NCBI GenBank assembly: GCA_026418415.1
Contig: JAOABK010000016.1
Coordinates: forward strand, 1 to 38,894
Direction: 5' to 3'
DNA length: 38,894 nt
DNA from: Pseudomonadota bacterium
GTDB taxonomy: Bacteria; CALINM01
Shown here piece by piece: positions 3,775 through 38,894 of this stretch. The notes below the pieces were generated by a model. That model did not search any database and had not been told where the DNA came from. It was given only the letters and a program-made list of their open reading frames with translations. Position 1 is the stretch's first letter; each line of letters begins with the position of its first letter. Made by a program: the position numbers and the translations under genes.

Positions 3775-5042
3775 ATAATATAAAAGACAAAAAACTTTTT
3801 TTAATATTAGGTGATAAAAGTTTTCAACAGGAAAAGATACGTTTTATATTGTCATCTTTTTTTGAAGGAAATATCCCTGAGCAAAATATTGAGTTTTATT
3901 CACAAAACAGACATGATTGGAATATAATTAAAGAACAAATACTAACATATTCGCTTTTTGGTACACCAAGATTCTTCATATTAGAAGAAACTGATATTTT
4001 TACTTCAGAAAAAAATATTAAGGAACTGCTTGATACTGCAAAAGAATTGTATATTTCAGGAGAATTTGAGAAAGCTTATAAATCTATATTATCTGCATTT
4101 CTTCAACTCGATATAAATGAATTAGATTACCAGAAAGTATCTGAAAATCCCTCTAATATTACAAAATTTTTCAATGATTATATAGATAACAGTGATTTTT
4201 GTATAGAGCTTTTAAAAAGGTTTAAATTACCAGAAAAACTTCCCCATAAATATGAAAGCACTGATTTGGAAAATATTATAACAAAAATTCCAGATGGACA
4301 TTATCTAATAATCACAACGAGTAATTTTGATAAAAGAAAAAAAATTTTTAAAGATTTACAGAAGAGAGCTGTCGTTTATGAGCAAATTAGTGTTAAAAAA
4401 GAGGGATATGAATTTAAGAAAAATATTGATAACTATATTAAAGACATTATTTCAAATTGGGGCAAAAAAATTTCTGCAGATAATTTAGTTTTGCTACAAG
4501 AGCTATGTTATGAGAGTAAGTATTTCGAAAAAAATTTAGAAAAACTATTAATTTTAACAAAAGATATTGATGAAATATCAAGAAATGAAATACTTTTAGC
4601 CTTTGATGATGATGCTATAGTAGACTCTAAGATGTTAAGCCAATTCATAAAAGAAAAAAATTTTTTTAAGATTATTACATTAATAACTAATCCAACATCA
4701 ACTAAACAGGATCACATAAAACTTTTAGGATACATAAGAAGCCTAATTAAAAATGGTATAGCACTTAAAGAAATATTTGAAGATAGAAGCATAAAAGACT
4801 ATTCAACATTTGTAAATTATTTAAATAGAGTTAAGGAAAATTATGCTAATAAATCATTATTACAGCAACATCCTTTTTATTTATTTCAGAGTTATCAAAC
4901 TTTCTTTGAATATGAAAAAGATTTTCTAATATCTTTGTATATCAAATTATTTGAAATAGACAAAGACATGAAATCAACTCAAAAAAATACTGTCGATCTA
5001 TTAATTGATTTTTTTAGCAGTATGTTTAACCCCAGAAAATAA
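3771..5042 (+). CDS. holA: DNA polymerase III delta subunit (clamp-loader wrench), HolA-like
   Basis: The 423-residue protein starts at GTG 3771, overlapping the leuB stop (GTGA). Family features are the N-terminal FLILGDKSFQQEKI, SLFGTPRFFILEETDIF, DGHYLIITTSNFDKRKKIF leading to a conserved aromatic, and C-terminal helical segments NLVLLQEL and LEKLLILT followed by the LLGYIRSLIK region. HolA opens the sliding clamp during loading. At 423 residues it is about 80 longer than usual; the extra part seems to lie around residues 85-165, between the two halves of the nucleotide-fold domain. The 3' end overlaps the convergent GGDEF gene by 17 bases. Sequence conservation of HolA is low, hence moderate confidence. 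Confidence 0.75.
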   Translation: MNNIKDKKLFLILGDKSFQQEKIRFILSSFFEGNIPEQNIEFYSQNRHDWNIIKEQILTYSLFGTPRFFILEETDIFTSEKNIKELLDTAKELYISGEFEKAYKSILSAFLQLDINELDYQKVSENPSNITKFFNDYIDNSDFCIELLKRFKLPEKLPHKYESTDLENIITKIPDGHYLIITTSNFDKRKKIFKDLQKRAVVYEQISVKKEGYEFKKNIDNYIKDIISNWGKKISADNLVLLQELCYESKYFEKNLEKLLILTKDIDEISRNEILLAFDDDAIVDSKMLSQFIKEKNFFKIITLITNPTSTKQDHIKLLGYIRSLIKNGIALKEIFEDRSIKDYSTFVNYLNRVKENYANKSLLQQHPFYLFQSYQTFFEYEKDFLISLYIKLFEIDKDMKSTQKNTVDLLIDFFSSMFNPRK

Positions 5043-6411
5043 TGCTTCCTTTTTGGGTTTTCTTAACCCTGTACATCGCCTTATCGGCCCTTTCTATGAG
5101 ACTTTTTGCAGTAAGACCTTTATAATATGTGGCTATTCCGATACTTGCACTAACCTTATGACCTGCAAGCGGTGTATTGATAATCTTGTCTTGTAACCTT
5201 TTTGCAGTTGCATAAGCACCTTCTTTCTCTGTATTTGGCAACATAATCACAAATTCTTCTCCACCGAACCGAGCAGCAATATCAATATCTCGCAAGCTAT
5301 TTTTAATAAGATTTGCAAATTCTTTCAAAATAATATCACCAACAGTATGTCCATAGGTATCATTTAATTTCTTAAAATCATCTAAATCAATAAACATTAT
5401 CGCTAAGCTTCCGCCATATCTATTTAGCCTCATTATTTCCTTTTCTAAGTTCTTTACAAAAAAGTTTCTATTATATAGTTGTGTTAATGGATCGATTATA
5501 GATAATCTCTCAAGAGCCATGAAACTCTGAACATTATTTAGAGCAATAGCGGTAGCATCAGCAAGATATGAAAAAAGATGCCTATCCTTTGCCGTAAAAC
5601 TACTTTGCTTGTTGAAAGATTCTATGACACCAAGTAATTTTCTCTTATAAATAACGGGCGCACATATAAGATTCTTGACCTCGTAATCTTTAACAATCTT
5701 ACTAATTTTCGTTTTTTCTGTAATTTTATCTATCACAACTATTTTACGATCTATAGCACATTGACCTGCAATACCATCTCCTAAGGGCAGAGTTATCTCT
5801 TTGTCAAGTCCTTGTGCAACTTTACTTACAAGCTTTTCCCCATCAAAAATAAATAATGTTGTTCTATCAGTCTTTAGAAGTTCAGTTGCTGCTGAAACTA
5901 TTTTTTCTAACAGAGTATCATAATCTTGTTGAGATATTAGGCTATTTAAAACCTTAATGATCTTTTCTCTCTCTAACCACCAATTTTCATAGGTTTTCAT
6001 AAAATTATTTATAAAATTTTCTATTAAATTAGCTATTGCAAAAACAATTTTTTCATCTACGTCAAAGGGAACACCACAGGTAACCCAAAAACCAATTTTT
6101 TTATCAAAGAATTTAATAGGTACAACAATTTTTCTATATTTAGCCCAACATTTTTTTACTAATTTATTTAAAACCATTCTTTTTTTTGTATCTTTAAGAC
6201 ACTTAATTACATTTTTTTGTTCACTAAGTATTTTCTTGCAATATTCTGGTACAAATGTTTTTTCTATAACAGTCTGCCCCTTTGAATCTAAAATAAAAGC
6301 ACAAAAACCAAATCTTTTAGAAAAATCTCGAGTCAAATCCTTAAGCTGTTCCAGTTCAAAGATGTCAGTTATTTGAATATTTTCAGTAGTTGGTTTTTTG
6401 GCATCGGTCAT
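5026..6411 (-). CDS. Diguanylate cyclase with PocR and GAF sensor domains
   Basis: The 461-residue soluble protein has three parts: a PocR-type ligand-binding domain (about residues 15-140, cysteines at 58, 71, 88 and 112), a GAF domain (about 155-295), and a GGDEF domain (about 300-461). The active site is intact, GGEEF at 383-387. A product-inhibition I-site, RDID at 374-377, lies the usual five residues upstream, so it should synthesise cyclic di-GMP under feedback control. No membrane segment is visible. Its start overlaps the copper ATPase gene by 4 bases (ATGA), so the two are co-transcribed. The PocR ligand is unknown; the neighbour hints at a metal- or redox-linked signal. Confidence 0.9.
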
Positions 6412-8819
6412 TTAAATTTGCCTTTTAATAAAAGTGAATTTGTTACTACAGATACAGAACTCATAGCCATTGCTATTCCAGCAAAGATTGGACTCAAAGT
6501 AATTCCAAAGAAGGGATATAAAATTCCTCCTGCTACTGGTATACCAATTGTGTTATATATAAAAGCCCAAAATAGATTTTCTTTTATCTTTTTCTTTGTC
6601 ATCCTGCTTAAGTTAATCGCCTTTACTATATTCATAAGATCTGGCCTTACAAGTACTACATCACTTGTTTCAATTGCAATATCTGTGCCAGAACCAAAAG
6701 CAATACCAACATCTGCAACCGCAAGAGCTGGAGCATCATTAATACCATCTCCTACCATTGCAACAATTTTAGATGATTCCTTTATTTTTTTAACAACAAA
6801 CTGTTTTTCATCTGGTAAAACTTTTCCTTTAAATTTACTTATATTTAATTTTTTTGCGACGCTTTCGGCTACTTTTTCATTATCACCTGATAACATGTAC
6901 AATTCAATATTTTGCTCTTTTATCGCCTTTACAAAATCTAAAGCATCTTCTTTTATCACGTCCGATATCACAACGAATCCCAAAAGATTCTTGTTATTCT
7001 CTACTTCTTCTCCAAGACAAACAACAGAATTGCCCTCGTCAAAATATTTAACAAAAACTTCTTTATTAAATTTAAACTGCTTTTCCTCTAAGAAATCTGG
7101 GGTACCAGCATACAGATATTTACCATTAATTTTACCTTTTATACCCTTGCCCAAAATATTTTCAAAATCTTTTACATCATAAAAATCAATATTGTTATAC
7201 TTTTTTAAAATAGCATCTGCAAGAGGATGAGATGATAATCTCTCAAGAGATGCAAGTTTCTTTAAAAATTCTACTTCATTGATGTCAAAGGTTTTTAATT
7301 CTACAACTTCAGGATGTCCGTATGTTAATGTGCCAGTCTTATCTAATACTATCACCTCAACATTTGCCAGTTTTTCAAGAATCTCTGCGTTTTTAAATAG
7401 AATGCCCCTTTCTGCGCCAAGACCGGTACCAACTATTATAGCAGTTGGAGTAGCAAGACCTAAAGAACAGGGACAGGCAATAATAAGAACAGATATAAAA
7501 GCTTTTGCAGATATATATGTATCAAAACCAGCAAACTTCCAGATTAAAAAACTAAGCACAGCAATTATAAAAACAACAGGAACAAAAACAGAGCTGATTT
7601 TATCAACCAATTTTTGTATGGGAGCCTTACTTCCCTGTGCCTCTTCGACTAACCTTATAATTTGGGCAAGCATTGTGTTACTACCCACAGATGTAGCTTT
7701 AAAAATAATGCTACCAGTGGTATTTAATGTTCCACCAATTACATTATCTCCTTTTTTCTTTTCCACAGGAATACTTTCTCCTGTTATCATTGACTCATCA
7801 ACAGAAGAATATCCATCAATTACAATTCCATCCACAGGGATTCTTTGACCAGACTTAACAACTATTAGATCACCTACGACCAATTCGTTTATTGAAACTT
7901 CTATTTCTCTGCCTTCTCTAATCACAATAGCCGATGATGGTAATAGTTTCAAAAGTTTTTTTATAGCAGAAGATGTCTTACCTTTTGCTATTGCTTCAAG
8001 GTATCTACCAAGTAAGATAAAGGTTATCAAAACTGCGGAAGTCTCATAATATAAATGTGAAGCATCTGTTAATCCACCATAGAAAATGACAACTGTCTCA
8101 TAGAGACTATAGATATAAGCAGTGCCAGTACCAAGAGCAACAAGGGTGTCCATTGTTGATGTTTTGGATTTTAAAAGAGTCTTTATGCCGTTTATGTAAA
8201 ATTCTTTTCCAAAAAACAAAACTGGGGTAGCAAGAATAAATTGTACAAAGGCATATATCGTATCATTTTGGAAAAAGTGGAAGATATTAAAGTGATCTGC
8301 CATAGTTATAACAAGTAAAGGTAGAGAAAAAACTGCTGAAAAAACAAAATTCCTCTTCTTATGTGCAAGTTCAATCTTTTCAGCATCTATATCAATATAA
8401 TCTAAAGGTTGATAGCCTGTTTCGGTTATTATTTTTCTTATTTTTTGTTCATCTAATATATTTTCATCAAAGGTGATAAAAGCCTTATTTGTAGCAAGAT
8501 TAACATTTGCCTCGAGTATCCCCAGTTGGGACTTTAGAGAATTCTCTAATTTAGAGACACACGATGCACAATGAAGACCACCAATTTTCACAACAACAGA
8601 TTTTGTTTTGATAATCTTAAAAATATAACCAATCGAATCTACAGCCTCTTTCATTTGAAGAGGAGTAATCAAATTTTCATCATACTCAATTAGAGCAGTT
8701 TTTGTAGCGAGATTAACATTTGCTGATTTGATACCCTTCAGAGAGTTTAATTTATCTTCTACACGAGCCACACAGGAAGCACAATGAAGCCCCTCAATTA
8801 TAAATGTTTCTTTTTTCAT
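6408..8819 (-). CDS. copA: Copper-translocating P1B-type ATPase with two HMA domains
   Basis: The 803-residue inner-membrane pump exports Cu(I). Two N-terminal heavy-metal-associated domains each carry a CASC metal site (residues 13-16 and 84-87). About eight membrane helices follow, with TGES at 346-349, the intramembrane CPC at 449-451, DKTGT with phosphorylated Asp493, and GDGINDAP near residue 695. Late-helix IYN and MAMSS motifs match the copper subgroup rather than zinc/cadmium pumps. No Shine-Dalgarno precedes ATG 8819. The gene is divergent from tal. No CueR/CsoR-type regulator or CopZ chaperone is visible nearby. It overlaps the downstream diguanylate cyclase gene. Confidence 0.93.
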
Positions 8820-27194: not shown

Positions 27195-28574
27195 ATGTCA
27201 ATAGGTAAAGTATTAGTTGTTGAGGATGAGAAAGGAATGCGGGACCTACTCTCCAGAGTATTAAAAAAGGAGGGATATGAAGTTTTTCTTGCAGAGGATG
27301 GTGAACAGGGTTATGAAAGCGCAAAGGAATTAGCACCTGACATCATTATTGCTGATTTGGATATGCCTGTTATGAATGGTATTGAAATGATAAAAAGGAT
27401 AAGGGCATTCGACCCAAATGCAACAATTATAATAATAACTGCTTATGCTTCTTTAGAATCAGCCATTGAAGCATTAAAACTTGGTGCCTATGACTATATA
27501 ATTAAACCTTTTAACATAGAAGAAATTAGAATTGCAGTCTCAAAAGCTTTTGAAAGAATTACACTAATAAACCAAAATAGATATCTAAAAGAGGAGCTGG
27601 ACAATAAACTCTTTTTTCCTGGAGTAATCGGGAAATCAGAAAAAATGAAACAAGTTATGGAATTAATAGATGCTGTATCAAAAACAGACTCAATAGTACT
27701 TATAGAAGGAGAAAGTGGTACTGGCAAAGAATTAGTTGCTCGAGCAATACATGAAAACAGTAATAGGAGAGAGAATCCTTTTATTATTTTAAATTGTGGT
27801 GCCCTTGCTGAAGGTGTCCTTGAAAGCGAACTTTTTGGACACGAAAGAGGCTCCTTCTCTGGAGCTATTGTTCAAAGGAAAGGTAGATTTGAATTGGCTC
27901 ATAAGGGGAGTTTGTTCATTGATGAAATTGGAGAATTACCACTTTCTGCTCAAACCAGACTTTTAAGGGTACTGCAGGAAAAAGAATTTGAAAGGGTGGG
28001 AGGTAATTTTCCAATAAAAGTTGACGTAAGGATAATTGCAGCAACTAACAAAAATTTAGAAAAGGAAGTCAAGGAACACAGGTTTAGAGAAGATCTCTTT
28101 TATAGACTCAACGTATTTAAAATTAACTTGCCACCATTAAGAGAACGAATTGAGGACATACCAGAATTTTGTAACTATTTTATATATAAATTTAACCGAC
28201 AGATGAATAAAAATATAAAGGGTGTATCGGAAGAAACAATGAAAATTTTCAAAAGTTATTATTGGCCTGGAAATATAAGAGAATTACAAAATGTAATTGA
28301 AAGAGCAGTAGTACTATGTAAAGGAGATATAATAACTCCAAGAGAAATACCTGATAACTTATCAAATAGAGAACAAAATATTTCTTATGATTTAAAGGAA
28401 GGTGAAAATTTAGAGACCTTTATTGACAGGATAGAAAAAGAATTTATTCTTAAAGCTCTAAAAAAAGCTGGTTATTCACAGACTAAAACTGCTGAAATAC
28501 TTGGGATTAAGAGAACAACCTTAAGGTATAAATTAGAAAAACACGGATTGCTTCATAAAACAATAGATAATTAA
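27195..28574 (+). CDS. NtrC-family sigma54-dependent response regulator
   Basis: The 459-residue protein has a receiver domain (phosphoacceptor Asp54, Lys104), an AAA+ domain (Walker A GESGTGKE at 172-179, Walker B around 238-249) and a C-terminal Fis-type helix-turn-helix (SQTKTAEILGIKRTTLRYKL). The sigma54-contact loop reads GSFSGA (219-224) instead of GAFTGA, with conservative changes that keep the hydroxyl residue and Phe. It should oligomerise on phosphorylation and open sigma54 promoters. One such promoter lies 23 bases beyond its stop, and a near-identical one at 37770, so these are its likely targets. No histidine kinase is encoded next to it. Confidence 0.93.
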   Translation: MSIGKVLVVEDEKGMRDLLSRVLKKEGYEVFLAEDGEQGYESAKELAPDIIIADLDMPVMNGIEMIKRIRAFDPNATIIIITAYASLESAIEALKLGAYDYIIKPFNIEEIRIAVSKAFERITLINQNRYLKEELDNKLFFPGVIGKSEKMKQVMELIDAVSKTDSIVLIEGESGTGKELVARAIHENSNRRENPFIILNCGALAEGVLESELFGHERGSFSGAIVQRKGRFELAHKGSLFIDEIGELPLSAQTRLLRVLQEKEFERVGGNFPIKVDVRIIAATNKNLEKEVKEHRFREDLFYRLNVFKINLPPLRERIEDIPEFCNYFIYKFNRQMNKNIKGVSEETMKIFKSYYWPGNIRELQNVIERAVVLCKGDIITPREIPDNLSNREQNISYDLKEGENLETFIDRIEKEFILKALKKAGYSQTKTAEILGIKRTTLRYKLEKHGLLHKTIDN

Positions 28575-28596: not shown

Positions 28597-28612
28597 TGGC
28601 ATTAAAATTGCT
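28597..28612 (+). promoter_or_regulatory. Sigma54 (-24/-12) promoter of the envelope cluster
   Basis: TGGCATTAAAATTGCT matches TGGCACRNNNNTTGCW except at one or two less-conserved positions, with GG and GC ten bases apart as required. The expected start, about 12 bases beyond the GC, is near 28623, just before the GTG at 28626. The cognate-type activator ends 23 bases upstream. The spacer and -12 element are identical to the site at 37770. Confidence 0.88.
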
Positions 28613-28625
28613 AAAATCGATTGAT

Positions 28626-29531
28626 GTGACAAAATTCTTTACTTTGATTCTAACCCTTCTTTTTATATTTTCTTGTAAGGGTAATTTTACAATCAATAAA
28701 CAATACTTACCAATTCATAAGGGTGTTTCAAGTAATAACTTTTACCAATTTTACGCAAGGGGTGGCGAAAGACATCTTAGTTTAATCGATTGGGGAGAGG
28801 ACTCCCTTCCCACTTCTGCAGGTTCTTGTCATCATGGAGGAGAAATCCTTCCTCCTCAAAAAGGTAGTATAAGAGCATACTTAAACGAAAAAAATCTGTT
28901 CTTAGATATATATTGGGATGACAAAACAAAGGATGTAAAAAACATTTTTTGGGATAGGAAGGAAAAGAAATGGAAAGACGGCAAAGATGATGGCATAGCA
29001 ATAATATTTAGCAAAAATCCTCAATTTGATTGTACAACTACTTGTCATATGTTAGATTGGAAAGTTGGTGATAGTAAATTTTCTTCAGATTATAGAATGT
29101 TTACAAAAGACAATACAGAATATCCATTAATAATACTCCGTTACAAAAAAACTAACAATAAACCCCTCTTAGCAATACTTGGAAAGGATGGAAAACTGAC
29201 TCCAAATAATGAACAAATTTACCATTTAAATTCAATCAAATTAGAAAAAACACCTTTAACATTACAATTATATCAAGCTATAAAAGAAGATAATCAACCA
29301 AAGATACCTCAAAATCATGATTTTTTTGTTTTAAATCCTAAAAATTCCTTTCTTAATGGTTTTATGGAATACAAATGGGGTAGATGGCATGCTAAAGTAG
29401 AAATTCCTATAGAAAAATTAAATCTCCTTTCAATTGAAAAAGATGATAAAATATATATAGCAATAGCAATATTTGATAATACACATGCAAACCATAGCAT
29501 AACTAAAACTTTTTATGCAACTTTAGAATGA
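28626..29531 (+). CDS. Lipoprotein resembling ethylbenzene-dehydrogenase-type haem-binding proteins
   Basis: From GTG 28626 the protein has 301 residues and a lipoprotein signal (MTKFFTLILTLLFIFSC, Cys17). A TTG at 28608 lies inside the sigma54 promoter, so it cannot be the start. The body suggests the beta-rich haem-binding fold of the ethylbenzene/DMSO dehydrogenase gamma-subunit type (GSIRAYLNEKNLFLDIYWDD, WKDGKDDGIAIIFS, WHAKVEIPIEKL). SCHHGG (Cys68) and CTTTCH (136-141) are possible haem or metal ligands; the second is a c-haem-like motif with one extra residue. It is the first gene of the sigma54 unit and probably an outer envelope redox protein. Family assignment is moderate. Confidence 0.7.
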   Translation: MTKFFTLILTLLFIFSCKGNFTINKQYLPIHKGVSSNNFYQFYARGGERHLSLIDWGEDSLPTSAGSCHHGGEILPPQKGSIRAYLNEKNLFLDIYWDDKTKDVKNIFWDRKEKKWKDGKDDGIAIIFSKNPQFDCTTTCHMLDWKVGDSKFSSDYRMFTKDNTEYPLIILRYKKTNNKPLLAILGKDGKLTPNNEQIYHLNSIKLEKTPLTLQLYQAIKEDNQPKIPQNHDFFVLNPKNSFLNGFMEYKWGRWHAKVEIPIEKLNLLSIEKDDKIYIAIAIFDNTHANHSITKTFYATLE

Positions 29532-29540
29532 GGAGTGAAT

Positions 29541-30266
29541 ATGCGTAAATTACTTATTCTTCTGATTCCATTATTCATCATTACCTGTAACAAAAAAGAT
29601 CAAAAATCAACCATAACAGGTACAATTTATCAGGCCATGCCATCCTTTTATGTTTACATCTATAAAGAGAATATGGACTTAAAAGGTCCAGCTTTTGCTG
29701 AAACTATTTCAGATAAAGATGGGAATTTTTCAATCCAGTTACCACCAGGAAAATACTTTTTAGTAGCAAGAATGAGAAGCAGTGGTGACATAGCGGGACC
29801 TCTTGAGGTTGGTGACTTTAAAAGTGAAGTAATAGGACCTATTACAATTGACGAAGAGGGCAAGATAATAAAACAAGACATTAAAGTTTTTAAAAAGACC
29901 GGAGAAAACAAAGATATAGCAATATTAGAGAATAAGAACCAATCAAAAACTGGTATAAGCGGTACAATTTATGATGCTGAAGGAAAACCTGTATCTGGTG
30001 CAAGAGTTCACGTATATGATCATGTACAAATGTCTGAACGTCCTAAATTTGTATCAAGCCCTACTGGTCCAGATGGTAAATATATTATCTATCTTCCTAA
30101 AGGAGGCACATATTACTTAGCTGCAAGAGATAAATTTGGAGGCCCACCTAAAGTCGGCGATCTTTATGGTAGATATGATAAAGGCACCATTGAACCTTCA
30201 GGGGTTATTGTAAAGGATAATGAAATCTTGAAAAATATCGATATTACAATTCACAGGGTGTGGTAA
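29541..30266 (+). CDS. Lipoprotein with two carboxypeptidase-regulatory-like beta domains
   Basis: I choose ATG 29541 (AGGAG at 29531-29535) over a GTG six bases earlier, giving 241 residues with a signal ending IITC (Cys16), a somewhat imperfect lipobox. Two related repeats follow: TGTIYQAMPSFYVYIYKEN with DKDGNFSIQLPPGKYFLVAR, and SGTIYDAEGKPVSGARVHVYD with GPDGKYIIYLPKGGTYYLAAR. Both repeats also share a G-P-x-x-V-G-D tail. These are transthyretin-like carboxypeptidase regulatory folds, usually structural or ligand-binding modules on the cell surface. It lies 9 bases after the previous gene and directly before the next. Confidence 0.8.
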   Translation: MRKLLILLIPLFIITCNKKDQKSTITGTIYQAMPSFYVYIYKENMDLKGPAFAETISDKDGNFSIQLPPGKYFLVARMRSSGDIAGPLEVGDFKSEVIGPITIDEEGKIIKQDIKVFKKTGENKDIAILENKNQSKTGISGTIYDAEGKPVSGARVHVYDHVQMSERPKFVSSPTGPDGKYIIYLPKGGTYYLAARDKFGGPPKVGDLYGRYDKGTIEPSGVIVKDNEILKNIDITIHRVW

Positions 30267-31175
30267 ATGAAAAAACTATTGATCTTAATCTTTTTTTCGC
30301 TATTCTTTGCATGCGGTCCCAAAATTTCAGAAATTGAAAAATATTCCTCCGGCGCCAAAAAGGGAGATTTAAGAGATATCAAGAAATTAATTCAACTTTT
30401 AGAACACCCCGATGAGGATATAAAAGTGAAAGCCTATCAAGGGCTTATTAATATACCAGACAATGCTAAAGCAAAAACAATTGAATTAACCATAAATTTA
30501 TTAAAGAAAAATTTTGATAATGCGACAAGAGAGTTCGCTATAGGTTTATTAGGTAAATTCAAAGCAAAATCTTCAGTACCAGTCCTTATCCAAATTTCAA
30601 AAGATAAGAATTTTAAAAGAAGATATGTTGTTTTCTCAGCTTTAGGTGAAATTCAAGATGAAACAGCATTAGATGCTATAATTGATGGACTTAAAGATGA
30701 AAAAGAAGATGTTAGAAAATATGCATCAAGAGCCCTTATTAAAATAGGCCCCAAAGCTATTCCCAAAATGATGGAGAGATATGTGAAGGAAGACGAAAAC
30801 ACAAAGGGATATTTAATTAGAGCCTTCGGAGAATTAAGAAATAACGCCCCTGAAGATCTTTTAATAAATGATTTAAATGGTCCAAATAAATATGATGTTA
30901 TTTGGGCTCTTGGTAAAACGGGCTCAAAAAAATCCCTGCCCTATTTAATAAATCTTCTTAATTCAGATGATTACAAGGTAAGGGTTCAGGTTTGTCAGGC
31001 CTTAGGAGATTTAAACCAACCAGATGCAATACCTTACCTTAGAAAGGCATTAAAGGACAAAGAGGTACTCGTTAGAGAGTGGGCAGCAAGATCTTTAGAA
31101 GTACTTACTGGAGAGAGAACATACTATATTGACCAACAAGGAAAATATGCTCTACCGTATAACATCTATCATTAG
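30267..31175 (+). CDS. HEAT-repeat lipoprotein
   Basis: The 302-residue protein begins with a lipoprotein signal ending LFFAC (Cys16). It then holds about seven HEAT/PBS-lyase-type repeats of 30-35 residues, such as IIDGLKDEKEDVRKYASRAL, LPYLINLLNSDDYKVRVQVC and PYLRKALKDKEVLVREWAAR. Such repeats form a curved helical scaffold for protein binding, so it probably organises a complex on the periplasmic side. ATG follows the previous stop with no gap. Its end overlaps the next gene by 29 bases. Confidence 0.88.
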   Translation: MKKLLILIFFSLFFACGPKISEIEKYSSGAKKGDLRDIKKLIQLLEHPDEDIKVKAYQGLINIPDNAKAKTIELTINLLKKNFDNATREFAIGLLGKFKAKSSVPVLIQISKDKNFKRRYVVFSALGEIQDETALDAIIDGLKDEKEDVRKYASRALIKIGPKAIPKMMERYVKEDENTKGYLIRAFGELRNNAPEDLLINDLNGPNKYDVIWALGKTGSKKSLPYLINLLNSDDYKVRVQVCQALGDLNQPDAIPYLRKALKDKEVLVREWAARSLEVLTGERTYYIDQQGKYALPYNIYH

Positions 31176-32406
31176 GAAGTTTGTATTAATTTTTACAATT
31201 TTCCTGATCTATAACGGTCTAAATATTTATGCTAAAGATCAAAATGAAATTTTATATATGTATGCAAATATGACAAACTTCTCTTTCTGGCTTATATTTC
31301 TTATGGGAAGCATTCTTCTTTCACCAATTGGTAGGGTTTTCTGTGCAATTTGTCCAGTTGGTGAAGTAAATTTTTTAACTTCACGATGGGGCTTAAAAAA
31401 AAGAATTTATTTTAATTTAAGTTTTCTACAAGGTATAGCAATGTTACTTCTCTTTTTACTTGTAATTACATTACATATATCAAGACATCCTCATTATACT
31501 TCTTTGCTAATTTCTACAGTTTTAATGACCGCTCTTATTCTTGGGCTATTGTTCAGGGGTAATATATTTTGTCTCCATTTATGTCCAGCAAATGGTTTTT
31601 TAAAATTTTATTCAAAATTTTCTTTTCTTAAGATTATTTGTAATGGGGATGTAAAAGTTGGATCACCATGCATGGTCTTTTTAAATCCCTGTAACCACCA
31701 AAGAGAAAATTGTCATATCTGTTTGCGGTGTTTTGAAAATAGCGAAGGACTAAAAGTCTCTTTTAAAAAACCAGAAACAAATTTCACTCCCCTTTCCATT
31801 AATGATTTTTTTATTTTTTCAATACTCTTTGGTTTGACAATCATGGCGTTCATTAGAGTTGTTCGTAATATAAGAGAGATATTCGTTTATCCTCCCTATA
31901 TATTTAGTCAAATTTTAAACATAGATGAAAAATATATCATTTACTTAGTAGTTTTTTTTGGTGTAATAATTTATCCAATAATTTTTATTCTTTTAGTTAG
32001 TTTTTTGAAAAAAGTATTCATAAAAGATAGCTTGAAAAACATTATAAGTGAAACAATTACCTATTTAATTCTACCATTATTTTCAGTGCATTTAATACTT
32101 GCTCTAATTAAACTTAATGCAAGACTGGGTTTTCTGCCATATGTAATAAACGACCCATCTGGAAAAGATACTATTATGCTGTATCAAATGAAGAAAATTG
32201 GAATTCCCTACGACTTAATACCAATTGATATTATGAAATATATAATTTTATTTTTGCCATTAATAACACTCTTTTGTGCTTATTTTATATTCTTTAAAGG
32301 TAAGAATTATTCAATAAGAGACTTTATAAATATGATTTTAATCATTATTTTCTTTATTTTTATTGAAATTTGCATACTAATGTGGTTGTTTAAGGGAATA
32401 ACATGA
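31147..32406 (+). CDS. Membrane polyferredoxin of the NapH/NosR/CcoG type
   Basis: ATG 31147 with AAGGA four bases upstream gives 419 residues; a start at 31129 would have no such site. About ten hydrophobic helices are present. Cysteine motifs are FCAICP, FCLHLCP and CHICLRC, with further Cys in GSPCMVFLNPC. This pattern is that of membrane proteins which pass electrons across the inner membrane to periplasmic reductases or maturation factors. It lacks the periplasmic FMN domain of true NosR, and the last half (four to five helices) is unlike NapH. A direct partner could be the haem-like lipoprotein at 28626. Confidence 0.8.
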   Translation: MLYRITSIIRKFVLIFTIFLIYNGLNIYAKDQNEILYMYANMTNFSFWLIFLMGSILLSPIGRVFCAICPVGEVNFLTSRWGLKKRIYFNLSFLQGIAMLLLFLLVITLHISRHPHYTSLLISTVLMTALILGLLFRGNIFCLHLCPANGFLKFYSKFSFLKIICNGDVKVGSPCMVFLNPCNHQRENCHICLRCFENSEGLKVSFKKPETNFTPLSINDFFIFSILFGLTIMAFIRVVRNIREIFVYPPYIFSQILNIDEKYIIYLVVFFGVIIYPIIFILLVSFLKKVFIKDSLKNIISETITYLILPLFSVHLILALIKLNARLGFLPYVINDPSGKDTIMLYQMKKIGIPYDLIPIDIMKYIILFLPLITLFCAYFIFFKGKNYSIRDFINMILIIIFFIFIEICILMWLFKGIT

Positions 32407-32885
32407 AAAAATTTATTATAATAATTCTTATAAACTTGTTTTTTTCTGTACCATCTAAAGCCTGCTTTGGTCCAGAATTAATCATTGGATATCAACAGGA
32501 TAGTCAAGAACACTATATATCCGCTATCCTTCTTGAACTCTACATTAAAGAAAAGACTGGGGTTGGAGCAAAAATACAGCAAGTTTCAAACAATAATATT
32601 TTAATCCTTTTGAAAGAAGAAAAAGTTGATATCATACTTTATGAAGGTTCATTAAACTTTAACAATTTAACTAAAAAGGAAATGACAAATGATAAAAAGC
32701 TTTTCCTCTATTATAGAACAAAAATTAAAGAAGATCTTCGATTCACTACCGTTATGGAAGCGATAGATAGACTTTCAAAACACTTAAACTCCGATGATAT
32801 TTTCAGGTTAACTCAAAAGATCGGAAATCAAAAACAGGAAAGACGAATTATTAAAGAATTTCTAATGCAAAGAGGCCTTTGGTGA
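32403..32885 (+). CDS. Small periplasmic protein resembling one lobe of quaternary-amine binding proteins
   Basis: The 160-residue protein has a signal peptide (MKKFIIIILINLFFSVPSKA, then Cys21). The mature N-terminus (ELIIGYQQDSQEHYISAILLELYIKEKTG, read to VDIILYEG) looks like the first strands of OpuAC/OsmF-type solute-binding proteins. The C-terminus (MEAIDRLSKHLNSDDIFRLT with REFLMQRGLW-like end) resembles their final helices. The central lobe, about 120 residues in the family, is missing, so it is a one-lobe version that probably does not clamp a ligand in the usual way. It overlaps its neighbours by 4 bases on both sides. The relationship is by eye. Confidence 0.6.
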   Translation: MKKFIIIILINLFFSVPSKACFGPELIIGYQQDSQEHYISAILLELYIKEKTGVGAKIQQVSNNNILILLKEEKVDIILYEGSLNFNNLTKKEMTNDKKLFLYYRTKIKEDLRFTTVMEAIDRLSKHLNSDDIFRLTQKIGNQKQERRIIKEFLMQRGLW

Positions 32886-33652
32886 GAATTTTTTTATTTT
32901 TATTATTTTTCTTACCCGGCTGTATAGGTATTCTCAAAGATAATGAGAATAATATTTATGGTGGAATTCTCAATAAAAATACCATCTGGAAAGGCACAAT
33001 AACCATTGAAAAAGATTTACTTATACCCCAAAATGTAGAATTAAAAATTGAAAAGGGTACTAAGATTCTTTTAAAACGTTCTGAAAGCACAAGGACAGAA
33101 CCAATCTTTCTTCAACCTGAAACGGAAATACTTGTTCGTGGGAAATTATATGCAACGGGGAACAAGAATAAACCAATTCTCTTTATCTCCGGAGAAAAAG
33201 AGGTATCTCCAAAGGACTGGGGAGGATTGGTTTTAGATGGTGGCAGGATCGAACTTTCTAATGTTATAATAAAAGATGCATCAACTGCTATCTTAGCCAT
33301 AGATGGAAATATAAAAATTACAGATTGTATATTTGAGAACAACAATTATGGATTTGTTGCTTTAGAAAATTCACAGGGAAGTTTAGAAAACTGTATTATC
33401 AAAAAAAATAAATCTGGAATTATTATTAACAACGATAAAATCATACTTAAAAACATTAAAGTTACTGAAAATGAAGAAGGAATGATTATTAAAAAAATTA
33501 ATGGTAAATCATCTGGTTTTGAAATATTTAGAAACGATACAGGATTAGTTATCCCCTTAAATTATTTAAACTTCTTCATAGAGGACAATAAAATTTATGA
33601 AAATAAAAAAAATGTTTTTTTATTTGATACTGACATTAACTTTAACCAGTAA
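32882..33652 (+). CDS. NosD-like right-handed beta-helix lipoprotein
   Basis: GTG 32882 (GTGA overlap, AGAGG six bases upstream) gives 256 residues with a perfect lipobox LPGC (Cys14). It opens with a beta-helix cap region (IWKGTITIEKDLLIPQNVELKIEKGTKI is the pattern) and then repeats such as IELSNVIIKDASTAILAIDG, IKITDCIFENNNYGFVALEN and LENCIIKKNKSGIIIN. Each turn is about 22 residues. NosD-type proteins act periplasmically in copper-sulfur centre assembly of N2O reductase, but many relatives have other roles. It is the first of three beta-helix proteins in the cluster. Confidence 0.82.
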   Translation: MRIFLFLLFFLPGCIGILKDNENNIYGGILNKNTIWKGTITIEKDLLIPQNVELKIEKGTKILLKRSESTRTEPIFLQPETEILVRGKLYATGNKNKPILFISGEKEVSPKDWGGLVLDGGRIELSNVIIKDASTAILAIDGNIKITDCIFENNNYGFVALENSQGSLENCIIKKNKSGIIINNDKIILKNIKVTENEEGMIIKKINGKSSGFEIFRNDTGLVIPLNYLNFFIEDNKIYENKKNVFLFDTDINFNQ

Positions 33653-34625
33653 AGTATCGGCAAATTTGTACTCAAATGTAATAATAGAAAATACAACCTT
33701 AGAGGGGAATAATACCTTTTCAGAGAAGGTATATATTAAGGGTAGAGTTACTGTTTCAGAAGGCTCAAAACTTACAATAAGGGAAGGCACCAAAGTAATA
33801 TTTCTATTTATAGATGAAGAAAAAGATAACATAGGTGAAAGTGAGATCTTAAGTCAAGGCAAAATAGAAATAATGGGAACAAAAGAAAATCCAGTAATTT
33901 TTGAATCAGATAGAAAACATAAAGGTTCATGGCTGGGATTAAGTATTATGAATGTAGATGAACCGAATATAATTAAAAATGCAGTTTTTCAAGATAGCTA
34001 TATGGCTTTACATGCCCATTTTTCTAACTTAAATATTGAAAATTGTATTTTTAAAAATAATTACAGGGGATTCCAGAGTCAGGAAGGGAAAATACGAATA
34101 ACTAACACAAAATTTTTTAATAATGATACCGCCTTACAGTTTAGAAACTCCAGTGCTCTTTTAAAAGATATAGAAATCTGGGACAACAAAGGAGGATTAA
34201 ACTTTCTTTATAGTGAAGCAGATATAGAAAATATTAAAGTACATAAAAACATTCTTTTTAATGTAAAAATTCGTCACTCAAAGGCAAAATTTAAACATAT
34301 CCAAGTATATGAGAGTCTTCAAAACTTCTATTCTAAAAACTCACAAATAGAAATAGATGATATTTTATCAGCTAATTCAAATTTAAGAGGTTTATCTTTT
34401 GAAGAATCGGAAATAAAAATAACAAAAGCAAGAATAAAGGATAATTCCTTAGATGGCATATCCCTTGATAACTCTAATCTCTGGTGTAATGAAGTAATTT
34501 ATAATAATAATGCAAGGTATGATGTTTATATAAAAGGAAAATCTGCTATCTCTAATGCTTGTTTGAAGGATATTAAGAGGGAAAAAATATTTGGAGTTAA
34601 GGATGATTTTTCGTCAGAACATTAA
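33597..34625 (+). CDS. NosD-like right-handed beta-helix protein, secreted
   Basis: The 342-residue protein has a cleavable signal (KIKKMFFYLILTLTLTSKVSA) and a long beta-helix of about 12 turns, for example LNIENCIFKNNYRGFQSQEG, IRITNTKFFNNDTALQFRN and IEIDDILSANSNLRGLSFEE. It is longer than the other two relatives. The start ATG 33597 lies 56 bases inside the preceding gene, an unusually large overlap; ATG 33612 is an alternative but would lose the basic n-region. The first repeats resemble those of the gene at 32882 and point to a duplicated family. Confidence 0.8.
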   Translation: MKIKKMFFYLILTLTLTSKVSANLYSNVIIENTTLEGNNTFSEKVYIKGRVTVSEGSKLTIREGTKVIFLFIDEEKDNIGESEILSQGKIEIMGTKENPVIFESDRKHKGSWLGLSIMNVDEPNIIKNAVFQDSYMALHAHFSNLNIENCIFKNNYRGFQSQEGKIRITNTKFFNNDTALQFRNSSALLKDIEIWDNKGGLNFLYSEADIENIKVHKNILFNVKIRHSKAKFKHIQVYESLQNFYSKNSQIEIDDILSANSNLRGLSFEESEIKITKARIKDNSLDGISLDNSNLWCNEVIYNNNARYDVYIKGKSAISNACLKDIKREKIFGVKDDFSSEH

Positions 34626-35514
34626 AAATTTGACAATATTTCTTCTTTTTGCTTTTTTAACTACCCTTTCTTGTAGTAGTGAAAAAAATAAAACATTCAA
34701 AATTGGGTATATGATATGTAATAGCCCCAAAGAAACTGAAGAAAGATTCTTAGCGCTTAACGCCTATTTAGAAAGGGAAACTGGTTATAAATTCAAGTTC
34801 TATGCAGTTGATACTGTTGATTTTGAAGAGGCTTATAAAAGAGAAAATTTTGATTTTATTCATACAAACCCAGTGCTTTACATAATATTAAATGAATCCT
34901 ACGGATTAGTACCAATGGTTGCAGAAAAAAACGGCATTTATGGCGCAAGAACCTTTGGAACTATAATCGTAAAAAAGGATAGCAATATCAAAAACATTTC
35001 AGATTTAAAAAATAAAAAAATGATCTTTGGACCAACCTTCGCTCCTTTCGGCTATATAACGCAGTTATACATCCTTTTAAAAAATGGGATAGACCCATAT
35101 AAAGATTTAAAGACAATTTATCAACCCCACCATTCGTTTCAACATGAGAAAATCATTTACGGGGTCTGGTTTGGTGCTTATGATGCTGGCACAGCACCTT
35201 TTTTAGATTTAGAAGAGATGGACAAAGAGGGAAAAATCAAGTTAGATGAAGATTTTAGGATTATTGCAAAATCAGAACTTCTTCCCTATTGTACCTTTTC
35301 GGCTAATAAAAAACTACCCACTGAGGTAATAGAAAAGGTAAAAAAAGCCCTTTTAAAAATTAATAGGGATACAACAGTGGAGATAAACAATGAGAGAGTT
35401 AATATATTCAAAAAAGCAAAGATCGATGGGTATGAAGAGATTAATGACAAAGATTATGACAAAATGAGAGAGATTCTCAAGTTCATTAATTTTCCGCCCT
35501 ATCAAAAGTTTTAA
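34603..35514 (+). CDS. PhnD-like phosphate/phosphonate-type solute-binding lipoprotein
   Basis: ATG 34603, with GGAG six bases upstream, gives 303 residues; a TTG four codons earlier is less likely. The signal ends LTTLSC (Cys24), a probable lipobox. The mature part matches the PhnD-like binding fold: FKIGYMICNSPKETEERFLAL, ENFDFIHTNPVLYIIL, YGARTFGTIIVKKDSNI, ISDLKNKKMIFGPTFAPFGY and GVWFGAYDAGTAPF. Both lobes are present. No ABC permease or ATPase is encoded in the cluster, so it may be a sensor or a scavenging protein rather than a transporter part. The ligand is unknown, perhaps an oxyanion. Confidence 0.8.
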   Translation: MIFRQNIKNLTIFLLFAFLTTLSCSSEKNKTFKIGYMICNSPKETEERFLALNAYLERETGYKFKFYAVDTVDFEEAYKRENFDFIHTNPVLYIILNESYGLVPMVAEKNGIYGARTFGTIIVKKDSNIKNISDLKNKKMIFGPTFAPFGYITQLYILLKNGIDPYKDLKTIYQPHHSFQHEKIIYGVWFGAYDAGTAPFLDLEEMDKEGKIKLDEDFRIIAKSELLPYCTFSANKKLPTEVIEKVKKALLKINRDTTVEINNERVNIFKKAKIDGYEEINDKDYDKMREILKFINFPPYQKF

Positions 35515-35515
35515 T

Positions 35516-35977
35516 ATGAAAAAGATTGATTTTATAATCTATTCAATCATTATTATCTGTCTTTCTTTAGTAATATTTTATGCCTATCAAACAGATTATC
35601 GGGAAACTGCTAAGGAAGATGATAAAGAAATTGAGTATATATCCTCTGAGATAAAACGTTCCAAAATTGAGCCAGCAATTAAGTTAATAGAGGAAAATAA
35701 ATATGATGAAGCTCTAATAGTTTTAGAAAGATATAAGGACACAAACCCTTTCTTACTTTTTTATAAAGGGCTTGCGCTTTATGGTATAAACAAAAAAAAT
35801 GAGGGGCTAAACCTTATAAAATTAGCATTACAAAGCTCTCCAGTCCTTTATGACATAAAATATAAAAATAATGTAAGACACCATATGGAAAGCATATTGA
35901 AACAAATTAGTTCCGATAGAGATCTTAAAAATTATAGGCACTTCATAGAAAGCAAACTTAAAGGCGGTTGCGGATGA
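35516..35977 (+). CDS. Membrane-anchored TPR-like protein
   Basis: The 153-residue protein has one N-terminal membrane helix (IDFIIYSIIIICLSLVIFYAY). The rest is a helical domain resembling about two tetratricopeptide-type repeats (KYDEALIVLERYKDTNPFLLFYKGLALYGINKKNEGLNLIKLAL). It ends with Gly-Gly-Cys-Gly. It probably faces the periplasm as a protein-protein scaffold. ATG is one base after the previous stop and it overlaps the transporter gene by 4 bases. I do not recognise a named family. Confidence 0.7.
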   Translation: MKKIDFIIYSIIIICLSLVIFYAYQTDYRETAKEDDKEIEYISSEIKRSKIEPAIKLIEENKYDEALIVLERYKDTNPFLLFYKGLALYGINKKNEGLNLIKLALQSSPVLYDIKYKNNVRHHMESILKQISSDRDLKNYRHFIESKLKGGCG

Positions 35978-37032
35978 TTAAACAATCAGTAATATTCATA
36001 ATTTCCGCATCCATAATCGGTATTTTTTCATCAATACTGTCGTATAAAGGTAATCCAATCAATACTGGTATATGCATCTCTTGCTTTATGGAGAACTATG
36101 CAGGCGCTCTTAAGCTACATAATAATGTATATATGCAGTACCTAAGACCTGAAATTACATTTATAATTATTGGCAGTTTCATTTCAAGCCTTTTAAGAAA
36201 GGAGTTCCAGCCGAGAATATCTCAAAGTATAATCTACTCTTTTTTCGGTGGGTTCTTCATGATAGTTGGAAGCGCAATTTTTATTGGATGTCCAATTAAG
36301 ATGCTTTTAAAATTAGCAGGTGGCGATCTAAATGCCCTTTCTGGAATAGCAGGACTTATATCTGGTGTATATCTTGCAGCTCTATTATTAAGGGACGGTA
36401 TTGATACTACCCCCTTTACAATAAAAAAGATAAAAAATAGTATTACCTCCTATTTAGTTATTGTTCTTGTTATAGTGATCTTTTTAACATCTATGATATA
36501 CCCGAAAATATTTGCTGAAAGCAAAAGTGGTGCGGGAGCAGAAAAAGCTCCACTCATATTATCAATAATCTTCAGCCTTATCATTGGTTATATATCTCAA
36601 ATTTCAAGGTTTTGTGTTACAGGTGCTACAAGAAATAGTATAATTTTAAAGGAAAAAACTGGGATAATTGCCCTTTTCTCTCTTACATTCTTCGCTTTCA
36701 TAACAAATATTTTTCTTAACAGATTCAATTTTGGTATTTACGGACAAGCAGGTAGTCATACACAATGGCTCTGGTCCTATTTAGGTATGTTATTAACTGG
36801 TTATATTGCAGTTATAATAGATGGCTGTCCATTCAGGCAATTAGTTAAAACAGGTGAAGGTGACCTTAACGCTCAAATTGCCTTTTTTGGCATGTTAATA
36901 GCTGGTGCCTTTGTACAAAATTTTAACATTCTGTCAGACTCTGCTGGTCCTACAATCGCTGGTAAGATATGGCTTCTCATAGGATTTATAATCTTTTCTT
37001 TGATTACCCTTGAATTGAGAAGAAATAGATGA
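35974..37032 (+). CDS. YedE-family membrane protein, putative selenium/sulfur-compound transporter
   Basis: I choose ATG 35974 (ATGA overlap) over a TTG six bases earlier, giving 352 residues and about ten helices. It contains the two internal repeats of the YeeE/YedE family: GCPIKMLLKLAGGDLNAL and GCPFRQLVKTGEGDLNAQ, each a Gly-Cys-Pro motif at the entry of a helix. The N-terminal NTGICISCFMENYAGALKLH matches the selenium-metabolism subtype (YedE/FdhT type). In that subtype the gene is usually next to a TusA-like gene and selD, neither of which is seen here. A related branch imports thiosulfate. The selenium role is inferred, not demonstrated. Confidence 0.85.
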   Translation: MIKQSVIFIISASIIGIFSSILSYKGNPINTGICISCFMENYAGALKLHNNVYMQYLRPEITFIIIGSFISSLLRKEFQPRISQSIIYSFFGGFFMIVGSAIFIGCPIKMLLKLAGGDLNALSGIAGLISGVYLAALLLRDGIDTTPFTIKKIKNSITSYLVIVLVIVIFLTSMIYPKIFAESKSGAGAEKAPLILSIIFSLIIGYISQISRFCVTGATRNSIILKEKTGIIALFSLTFFAFITNIFLNRFNFGIYGQAGSHTQWLWSYLGMLLTGYIAVIIDGCPFRQLVKTGEGDLNAQIAFFGMLIAGAFVQNFNILSDSAGPTIAGKIWLLIGFIIFSLITLELRRNR

Positions 37033-37778
37033 AATATTTATCGATCCTTTTATTTTTGACTTTTATTTTTCCTTTTAACGTGAAAGGAGAAGATAAAATA
37101 GTACTTTCGGGAAAAATAAAATTAGAAAAAGCCCTATTTTTTGAAGGAAAAACATTAATTATAGAGAAAAATACATTAATTGAAATTGATACAGAAGAGG
37201 AACATGTAATACATATAAAGAATGGAGAGCTTTATATAAATGGTGCATATCAAAACCCAGTAATTATTAAAAGCAAAAGACCTCATAACGAACAAAACGC
37301 TTTCTTTATAGAAGACTCACAAGCAAACATAAAAAATGCTGTTTTTGAAAATAATGGCTGGTCAATACATGTTCATAACTCTGAAGTTTCTATTGAGAAT
37401 TCAATTTTCAAAAATAACTTTGGCGGTATTAGATTTTTTAATAGCAAAACTTATATAAAAAGAAACCTTTTTGAAAAAAATGAGATAGCCATTAGATTTA
37501 TAAACTCAAATAATAATGAAATTATAAAAAACATTTTCTATCAAAATCAGACTGCTATTTTTATAAGAGAGGGTATTCATAAAGTTGGTATCAAAGAAAA
37601 TGTTTTTATAAAGAACCTATATGATTTTTATACTGGTTTTTTTCAAACAGAAAGTCTAAACATCCCCTTCAATTATTATTATGAAACCCCATCAATTTTC
37701 GATAAAACAAAAGACGAAGATATATCAATTATTATAAATATTCATCCTGTTTTAAATGATTTTCCAGACTGGCACTAA
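37029..37778 (+). CDS. NosD-like right-handed beta-helix protein, secreted (third copy)
   Basis: The 249-residue protein has a cleavable signal (MKYLSILLFLTFIFPFNVKG) and a beta-helix of about eight turns, including ANIKNAVFENNGWSIHVHNS, VSIENSIFKNNFGGIRFFNS and KTYIKRNLFEKNEIAIRFIN. It overlaps the transporter gene by 4 bases. It is the last gene of the first sigma54 unit, and the second sigma54 promoter overlaps its final codons. Confidence 0.8.
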   Translation: MKYLSILLFLTFIFPFNVKGEDKIVLSGKIKLEKALFFEGKTLIIEKNTLIEIDTEEEHVIHIKNGELYINGAYQNPVIIKSKRPHNEQNAFFIEDSQANIKNAVFENNGWSIHVHNSEVSIENSIFKNNFGGIRFFNSKTYIKRNLFEKNEIAIRFINSNNNEIIKNIFYQNQTAIFIREGIHKVGIKENVFIKNLYDFYTGFFQTESLNIPFNYYYETPSIFDKTKDEDISIIINIHPVLNDFPDWH

Positions 37779-37785
37779 AATTGCT
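37770..37785 (+). promoter_or_regulatory. Second sigma54 (-24/-12) promoter
   Basis: TGGCACTAAAATTGCT fits TGGCACRNNNNTTGCW at every strongly conserved base. It differs from the 28597 site at a single base. It overlaps the last three codons of the preceding gene, and the expected start near 37796 lies just before ATG 37798. Confidence 0.9.
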
Positions 37786-37797
37786 TTTTTGCTAAAC

Positions 37798-38118
37798 ATG
37801 AATAAAATAAAAATACCAGAAGACATTTTTGAGAGAATAGAAGAAGAAAACCTTAAGAAAGCAGAAGAGCTTATTAGTAAAGGTTTATACGAAGAAGCAG
37901 AAGACATTGGAGTTATGACCCTTATAAGAAGCGGTATAATGACACAGCTTAATCCCATGGGCAAAATAATCTGGGATAATTTACGAACTATTAACACTTT
38001 GAATGACTTGGTTGAAAAAATTAGCAAAGAGTTTAATATTGACTATGAATCCTGCTTTAGAGATATTAAAATTTTCATTGATGATTTGATTGATAAAGGC
38101 TTTATCGTTTATGAATAA
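37798..38118 (+). CDS. PqqD-like peptide-binding protein (RRE) for a radical SAM enzyme
   Basis: The 106-residue protein starts at ATG 37798; an upstream reading frame through the promoter should not be counted. Residues 45-105 (IMTQLNPMGKIIWDNL then LVEKISKEFNIDYES and IKIFIDDLIDKGFI) match the winged-helix PqqD/RRE fold that hands precursor peptides to radical SAM enzymes. The first 40 residues form an extra acidic helical region. It overlaps the radical SAM gene by 8 bases and is the first gene of the second sigma54 unit. Confidence 0.85.
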   Translation: MNKIKIPEDIFERIEEENLKKAEELISKGLYEEAEDIGVMTLIRSGIMTQLNPMGKIIWDNLRTINTLNDLVEKISKEFNIDYESCFRDIKIFIDDLIDKGFIVYE

Positions 38119-38894
38119 AACATTCATTTTAAATGCACCTCTTACAATTAATTTAACACTCTCTTATAGGTGTAATTTCAATTGTGCTCACTGTTACAGT
38201 AGAGAGGAAGATTTAAAAGGTGAACTAAGTTTTGATCAGTTCAAAAAAATTGTAGATATACTTGCCTCATGGAAAGTGCCTTTTCTTAATTTAGGTGGTG
38301 GAGAACCTCTAATATATCCCCATTTATTTGATTTTGTTGAATATGCAACATCCAAGGGACTACAATGTTCAATGAATACAAATGGTTATATACTTGATAA
38401 AGAGATGGCAAAAAAAATCAAACAAGTGGGCTTTAAATCTGTGGGAATAAGTATAGATAGCCCCGACGAAGAAAAACATGACTTTTTTAGAAATAGACAG
38501 GGAAGTTTTAAAAAAGCTCTTAATGCTCTTGAAAATTTAGCACAAGAGAATGTTAAAACCACTGTATCCATGGTAATCTCAAAGTTAAATTTTCACAACT
38601 TTGAAGAAATGATTCCCCTTTTAAAACAATATAATGTGGCACAACTATTTTTACATAATTATAAATGTTCTGGATTAGGTTATAAGAACATGGAAAAATA
38701 CGACCTAACTCCAGAGGAATGGAAAGATTTTTATATAAGGGCACTACAATTAAAAAATAACACAAAAGATATAATAATTTCCTTCGATGATCCAATTCTT
38801 CATTTATTACCAGAATATGATGAAACCCCTCTTGTAAAAGGTAGCACCTGTGGGAAACTTTCACTTAATATTAGATCTAACGGTGACATAACCC
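38111..38894 (+). CDS. Radical SAM protein, PqqE/SPASM-like (5' part)
   Basis: The gene runs off the right edge; 261 codons are visible. ATG 38111 lies 8 bases inside the PqqD-like gene. The [4Fe-4S] site is CxxxCxxC at Cys21, Cys25 and Cys28 (LSYRCNFNCAHCYS). The SAM-site motif LNLGGGEPLIYPH and the conserved SMNTNGYIL and VGISIDSPDEEKHD follow. A cysteine in GSTCGKLSLNIRSNGDIT marks the start of a SPASM/twitch region. Together with PqqD it indicates peptide or cofactor maturation, as in PQQ, mycofactocin or sactipeptide systems; haem-type (NirJ/AhbD) maturation is also possible. The precursor is not visible. Confidence 0.9.
   Translation, partial: MNKTFILNAPLTINLTLSYRCNFNCAHCYSREEDLKGELSFDQFKKIVDILASWKVPFLNLGGGEPLIYPHLFDFVEYATSKGLQCSMNTNGYILDKEMAKKIKQVGFKSVGISIDSPDEEKHDFFRNRQGSFKKALNALENLAQENVKTTVSMVISKLNFHNFEEMIPLLKQYNVAQLFLHNYKCSGLGYKNMEKYDLTPEEWKDFYIRALQLKNNTKDIIISFDDPILHLLPEYDETPLVKGSTCGKLSLNIRSNGDIT

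Follow-up and report, generated by a model that had tools for sequence, protein, structure and literature searches.

The DNA analysed here, hereafter the window, is one whole contig of 38,894 nucleotides from a 2.03-Mb draft genome that is 92% complete. Toward its end, a regulator gene is followed by two putative operons, each preceded by a sigma-54-type element; the second begins with a PqqD-like gene and a radical SAM gene and is cut by the end of the contig. The features concerned are as follows.

27195..28574, + strand: sigma-54-dependent response regulator of the NtrC family
28597..28612, + strand: sigma-54 element TGGCATTAAAATTGCT, TGGCAT-N5-TTGCT, before operon 1
28626..29531, + strand: EB_dh-like lipoprotein, first gene of operon 1
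29535..30266, + strand: carboxypeptidase-regulatory-like lipoprotein; such genes adjoin precursor copies in other lineages
30267..31175, + strand: HEAT-repeat lipoprotein, assigned from its sequence and conserved in six loci
31129..32406, + strand: NapH-like membrane ferredoxin protein (Fer4_5)
32403..32885, + strand: half-length substrate-binding-like exported protein (cluster c6)
32879..33652, + strand: NosD-like parallel beta-helix lipoprotein 1
33597..34625, + strand: NosD-like parallel beta-helix protein 2
34609..35514, + strand: PhnD-like (phosphonate-type) binding lipoprotein, found in nearly all GeoRSP loci
35516..35977, + strand: membrane-anchored TPR protein (c7) with a near-invariant C-terminal Gly-x-Cys-x tail
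35968..37032, + strand: YedE-family sulfur/selenium transporter-like permease (TIGR04112, 341 bits; cut-off 200)
37029..37778, + strand: NosD-like beta-helix protein 3
37770..37785, + strand: sigma-54 (-24/-12) element TGGCACTAAAATTGCT, TGGCAC-N5-TTGCT, of the second operon
37798..38118, + strand: PqqD-like RiPP recognition element of GeoRSP type, 106 aa
38111..38894, + strand, open at the contig end (ORF 38111-38893): radical SAM/SPASM maturase of GeoRSP type

The preliminary description of this DNA had paired a PqqD-like gene with a radical SAM gene. The pair stands, Pfam and NCBIfam agreeing on both genes, which overlap by 8 bases. The PqqD-like ORF matched Pfam PqqD with an E value of 5e-12, and its best NCBIfam model was TIGR04302 (geo_PqqD), with 56 bits over positions 1-102 of 102 (cut-off 100). 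The radical SAM ORF matched Radical_SAM of Pfam with an E value of 1e-32; as far as the contig end, its best model was TIGR04303 (GeoRSP_rSAM), with 271 bits over 254 of 325 positions. The contig ends before the SPASM domain of this gene. The domain and its cysteines are complete in both full-length homologues, found at loci L022 (same genus, 3680-4696) and L023 (same family, 5742-6758), and the identity to these over the shared part is 83% and 71%, respectively. All 26 radical SAM enzymes aligned contain the CxxxCxxC motif. Together with the SPASM domain, which was read past the window's end in the two relatives, this motif marks the enzyme as one of the radical SAM/SPASM class.

The AlphaFold2 model of the PqqD-like protein (pLDDT 95.5) has a strand at residues 11-14 and helices at 16-27 and 31-35, followed by the usual winged-helix part. 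The nearest solved structures were TbiB1 bound to a leader peptide, and PqqD (Foldseek E 0.004-0.014, probability 1.0). The protein had been credited with an unusual helical N-terminal extension of 40 residues. The extension is real but not unusual, as it lies within the TIGR04302 model and is common to 22 relatives; nor is it a 40-residue helix, AlphaFold2 giving instead the strand and the two short helices.

The second operon appears to have a promoter of its own. L022 (3340) and L023 (7105) both have the element before pqqD in the corresponding position, and in the window and these two relatives operon 1 is preceded by a near-identical one. A single sigma-54 match within 39 kb could occur by chance; the evidence is the conserved position. 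The regulator gene lies just upstream of the element of operon 1, and in Desulfuromonadales, Nitrospirae and further lineages, too, this operon has a relative of the regulator beside it; the regulator is probably the activator of both operons. With -24/-12 elements and a sigma-54 activator gene at hand, sigma-54-dependent transcription is predicted. The earlier suggestion of a second operon inducible by the same signal as the envelope genes is a well-supported prediction, given that L022 and L023 have both elements in matching positions. In all three genomes, the element before pqqD either coincides with the end of the upstream gene or lies just ahead of it. In the window (37760-37785), TGGCAC of the -24 element forms the last codons (Trp-His) of the beta-helix gene, whose stop the element spans; the Pro-Asp-Trp-His end of the upstream beta-helix protein is common to the window and L023. 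No strict sigma-54 pattern was found upstream of pqqD in other lineages. Therefore, the internal promoter looks specific to the window lineage.

The models TIGR04302, TIGR04303 and TIGR04304 describe the PqqD, radical SAM/SPASM and SPASM proteins of GeoRSP, respectively. In the window lineage the same three genes occur in the same order with these as best-scoring models, and they are adjacent in L022 and L023. The neighbourhood is shared with Geobacter loci that score above the cut-off (622 bits for the radical SAM enzyme, against 400). The window lineage itself stays below the curated cut-offs, with 56 of 100 bits for PqqD, 385.9 of 400 for the full-length radical SAM enzyme of L022 and 36 of 300 for the SPASM protein. 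For the L022 maturase, the next best model after GeoRSP_rSAM was the mycofactocin radical SAM enzyme (179.8 bits). Because of gene order, the shared peptide described below and the best-model scores, we regard the cassette of the window lineage as a divergent GeoRSP variant, not a formal member by the cut-offs.

A scan of a genome collection gave 27 close GeoRSP loci, from Geobacter, Desulfuromonas/Geopsychrobacter-type bacteria and Nitrospirae, L022 and L023 included; in the Geobacter phylum, 17 of 247 genomes carry the maturase. The neighbourhood is constant: genes for NosD-like, carboxypeptidase-regulatory-like, half binding, PhnD-like, TPR and YedE proteins, and then those for PqqD, the radical SAM enzyme and the SPASM protein. 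The place of YedE is sometimes taken by ArsP or NicO permeases. At L093 and L094, for instance, the gene after that for the TPR protein encodes an ArsP-type permease.

In L022 and L023, the radical SAM gene is followed by genes for a peptide, a SPASM-only protein, an EGID-type cysteine desulfurase and a small lipoprotein, and by tsaD. The SPASM-only partner lacked CxxxCxxC in all 21 sequences aligned. These downstream genes, including the window's own precursor peptide, are absent from the window's assembly: the SPASM gene was not found elsewhere in this 92% complete draft, and the cysteine desulfurase search returned distant paralogues only. Judging from the 83%-identical neighbours, the peptide gene of the window lineage would begin about 0.23 kb past the contig end. 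It had been supposed that the precursor might lie downstream or be one of the exported proteins. The first supposition agrees with a 17-aa ORF directly after the radical SAM gene in both relatives that reach further, while the exported proteins gave no supporting signal. The expectation of a Gly/Cys-rich precursor fails, as the C-terminal cysteine is the sole invariant one. A haem or other known maturase operon downstream had been named as the finding that would speak against a peptide; the relatives have no haem operon there.

The peptides of L022 and L023 are MKYIKPKTLGISTVHPC and MKYVRPKAKGISSVHPC, respectively, both of 17 aa; an example from Desulfuromonadales is MKKYMKPRVVGSSNVHPC. In L022 and L023 the ORFs start where the radical SAM gene ends and have a strong ribosome-binding site, AAGGAGGTGA. 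When short ORFs lying mostly outside annotated genes were compared, one family stood out, present in 13 loci of four clades, and it was then extended by pattern and by profile. Its members are 17-21 residues long and follow roughly the pattern MK..Y-x-[KR]-P-[RK]-[VI]-x-G-xxx-V-H-P-C. The profile gave 39 matches with E values up to 2.1e-9, the next being at least 0.6, among 30,713 six-frame ORF ends from 853 kb of loci; in shuffled DNA, its best score had an E value of 0.0023. These figures are to be read knowing that the profile was built partly from copies that it then recovers and that neighbouring copies are not independent. Searching another 371 kb of flanking DNA with the profile added six copies (E up to 6.2e-11); one, from a genome that does not belong to the window's family, lies about 20 kb away from the cassette. 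Altogether, GeoRSP loci of several lineages hold 45 copies.

Six residues never change among the 37 distinct DNA copies: Tyr(-15), Pro(-12), Val(-4), His(-3), Pro(-2) and the Cys at the end. Gly(-8) is present in 35. The codons at the invariant residues vary (four for Val, up to four for Pro, and two each for Tyr, His and Cys), and a ribosome-binding-like motif precedes 34 of the 37. Since the residues are invariant while their codons vary, and in view of the ribosome-binding-like sites, the ORF is, as far as sequence can tell, under protein-level selection and a real gene. In 22 loci, one copy each, it stands just after the maturase gene. Most other copies lie near exported carboxypeptidase-regulatory-like or NosD genes, with up to five in one 18-kb stretch. 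L076 and L077 from Nitrospirae have five copies each, with an extra cysteine (CVHPC), mostly near differing carboxypeptidase-regulatory-like genes. No peptide was found in the parts read of the genomes of L040, L053, L093, L094, L100, L102, L105, L142 and L143. The peptide matches no NCBIfam or Pfam family in a scan of the 20-21-aa members. Gene finders usually miss such short ORFs, which would explain why the peptide was overlooked. The identity of the cassette, the existence, conservation and position of the peptide and the promoter are established at the sequence level.

We infer the binding, modification, product and function of the peptide system as follows. Very probably, the VHPC micropeptide is the substrate of the GeoRSP-type maturase. 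The PqqD-like protein and the radical SAM enzyme would be the recognition protein and the maturase of a RiPP-type pathway with its own sigma-54 promoter, and the substrate would be the micropeptide of 17-21 residues whose gene comes directly after that of the maturase. As in RiPPs, a gene-encoded precursor with a leader and a conserved core adjoins a maturase. The leader-bearing VHPC ORF beside the maturase and its many copies in GeoRSP loci support the modified peptide or cofactor proposed previously. Its leader half, Y-x-[KR]-P-x-[VI], resembles motifs bound by PqqD/lasso-type recognition proteins, such as the YxxPxL (PMC10368454) and W/Y/LxxP (PMC12710340) families. The predicted PqqD fold is of the kind that binds such leaders, and the PqqD-like protein would bind this half. 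The C-terminal half is plausibly the core: its final residues, around the invariant VHPC terminus, would be modified by the radical SAM/SPASM enzyme, in most cases together with the SPASM-only protein. As cysteine is the very last residue in every copy, a free carboxylate or thiol at the peptide end is suggested to matter. The product might then serve the co-regulated envelope system of beta-helix, carboxypeptidase-regulatory-like and PhnD-like proteins with a YedE or ArsP permease.

The TPR protein c7 offers another cysteine near a C-terminus, and the maturase could modify its Gly-Gly/Ser-Cys-x tail, instead of or besides the micropeptide. The cysteine is penultimate in all 41 loci, across several lineages and with both Cys codons in use; D113, G150 and C152 alone are invariant in a very divergent family (about 15% identity elsewhere), and the tail is predicted to be disordered. 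Furthermore, c7 occurs in 17 of 17 GeoRSP genomes against 1 of 230 others, and the sole exception lies on a 3-kb contig that breaks off at the point where the cassette would be expected. However, co-occurrence of the whole operon accounts equally well for this distribution. The micropeptide shows the leader motif, the size and the position expected of a substrate, and the tail was demoted as the lead substrate when the scan of short ORFs outside annotated genes gave the VHPC peptide. The genome G001, of the same genus, keeps the PqqD, radical SAM and SPASM genes and the peptide; its upstream operon survives in remnants only, and its assembly has neither PhnD nor the TPR protein. This loss is either real decay or faulty assembly. 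A cytosolic enzyme could hardly reach the TPR domain of c7 if this is periplasmic, a point that charge counts leave undecided. The tail may do no more than provide a thiol for use with the permease; it is probably a functional thiol of the PhnD-YedE system. Modification of c7 by the maturase is thus improbable in our view. A ribosome-binding-site constraint was rejected as the cause of the conserved tail: the window has GGCGGT, not GGAGG, and in Nitrospirae the gap ahead of yedE is 22-36 nt.

Many copies of the micro-ORF lie upstream of long genes, as would befit a regulatory (attenuator) peptide for the genes after it, the true substrate being unlinked. Against this, in 22 loci the ORF sits where the maturase gene ends, in some of them with nothing related after it; it contains the leader motif of recognition elements; and V-H-P-C does not change between lineages with different genes downstream. 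We consider such a role very unlikely. It is most unlikely of all that the radical SAM enzyme has a tetrapyrrole substrate, as AhbC/AhbD/NirJ do, and makes a haem variant for the EB_dh-like protein that opens operon 1: AhbD and NirJ are among the next-best model matches, but neither is the best, the GeoRSP model leading by about 200 bits; a PqqD-type recognition element and the conserved micropeptide adjoin the maturase, and no haem genes were seen nearby in the operon of any locus read.

With the micropeptide as the presumed substrate, the closest parallel is mycofactocin (MftA/MftB/MftC), which likewise combines a short peptide with a strongly conserved C-terminus, a recognition element and a SPASM radical SAM enzyme (PMC3023750). 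In contrast to mycofactocin, the peptide here has 17-21 aa ending in VHPC, a SPASM-only partner is added, and envelope and permease genes take the place of nicotinoproteins and a glycosyltransferase. The lasso B1 elements with YxxPxL leaders (TbiB1, FusE) are similar in predicted PqqD fold and leader motif (PMC10368454), whereas no lasso cyclase or protease was seen here and a radical SAM enzyme is present instead. The 3-thiaglutamate scaffold TglA is likewise centred on the C-terminal cysteine of a peptide scaffold, but that cysteine is added enzymatically from cysteinyl-tRNA, whereas the cysteine of VHPC is gene-encoded (PMC9016710).

What reaction the maturase would perform can be considered by analogy. 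We tentatively favour chemistry at the C-terminal cysteine, e.g., oxidative decarboxylation or a thioether cross-link, since MftC, the mycofactocin maturase and, by full-length score, the closest characterised relative, acts at the C-terminus of its peptide, on Val-Tyr. The constant company of a binding lipoprotein, a YedE/ArsP permease and beta-helix and carboxypeptidase-regulatory-like lipoproteins suggests, with low confidence, a role of the product in handling metals or sulfur compounds in the envelope. In a wider and rather speculative reading, the VHPC peptides could form an unrecognised RiPP class across several lineages, some of them rich in metal reducers, in which a radical-altered C-terminal cysteine yields a small thiol or a metal-binding cofactor; this would act in the envelope alongside beta-helix and carboxypeptidase-regulatory-like proteins and YedE/ArsP-linked uptake.

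GeoRSP is a named but orphan maturation cassette, with no precursor model or paper in the sources searched. Open-access papers yielded no mention of GeoRSP or of VHPC together with radical SAM, nor anything relevant on NosD/YedE with radical SAM. GeoRSP becomes directly testable with a substrate of 17 residues whose C-terminal VHPC is invariant. Besides, for Geobacter, Desulfuromonas, Nitrospirae and the window lineage alike, the peptide points to an envelope function of a small molecule or cofactor.

Some observations concern the surrounding genes and genomes. selD is present in all 26 GeoRSP genomes, with one TGA read through in nearly all, a bare count that is given no weight. In the window (34609-37032), the PhnD-like, TPR and YedE genes form a mobile three-gene unit, whose layout is like that of a binding-protein-dependent secondary transporter, not an ABC transporter. 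In the same-genus genome of L022 (1300-3370), the upstream operon, including gltB and the regulator, consists of collinear fragments, and the peptide cassette is intact.
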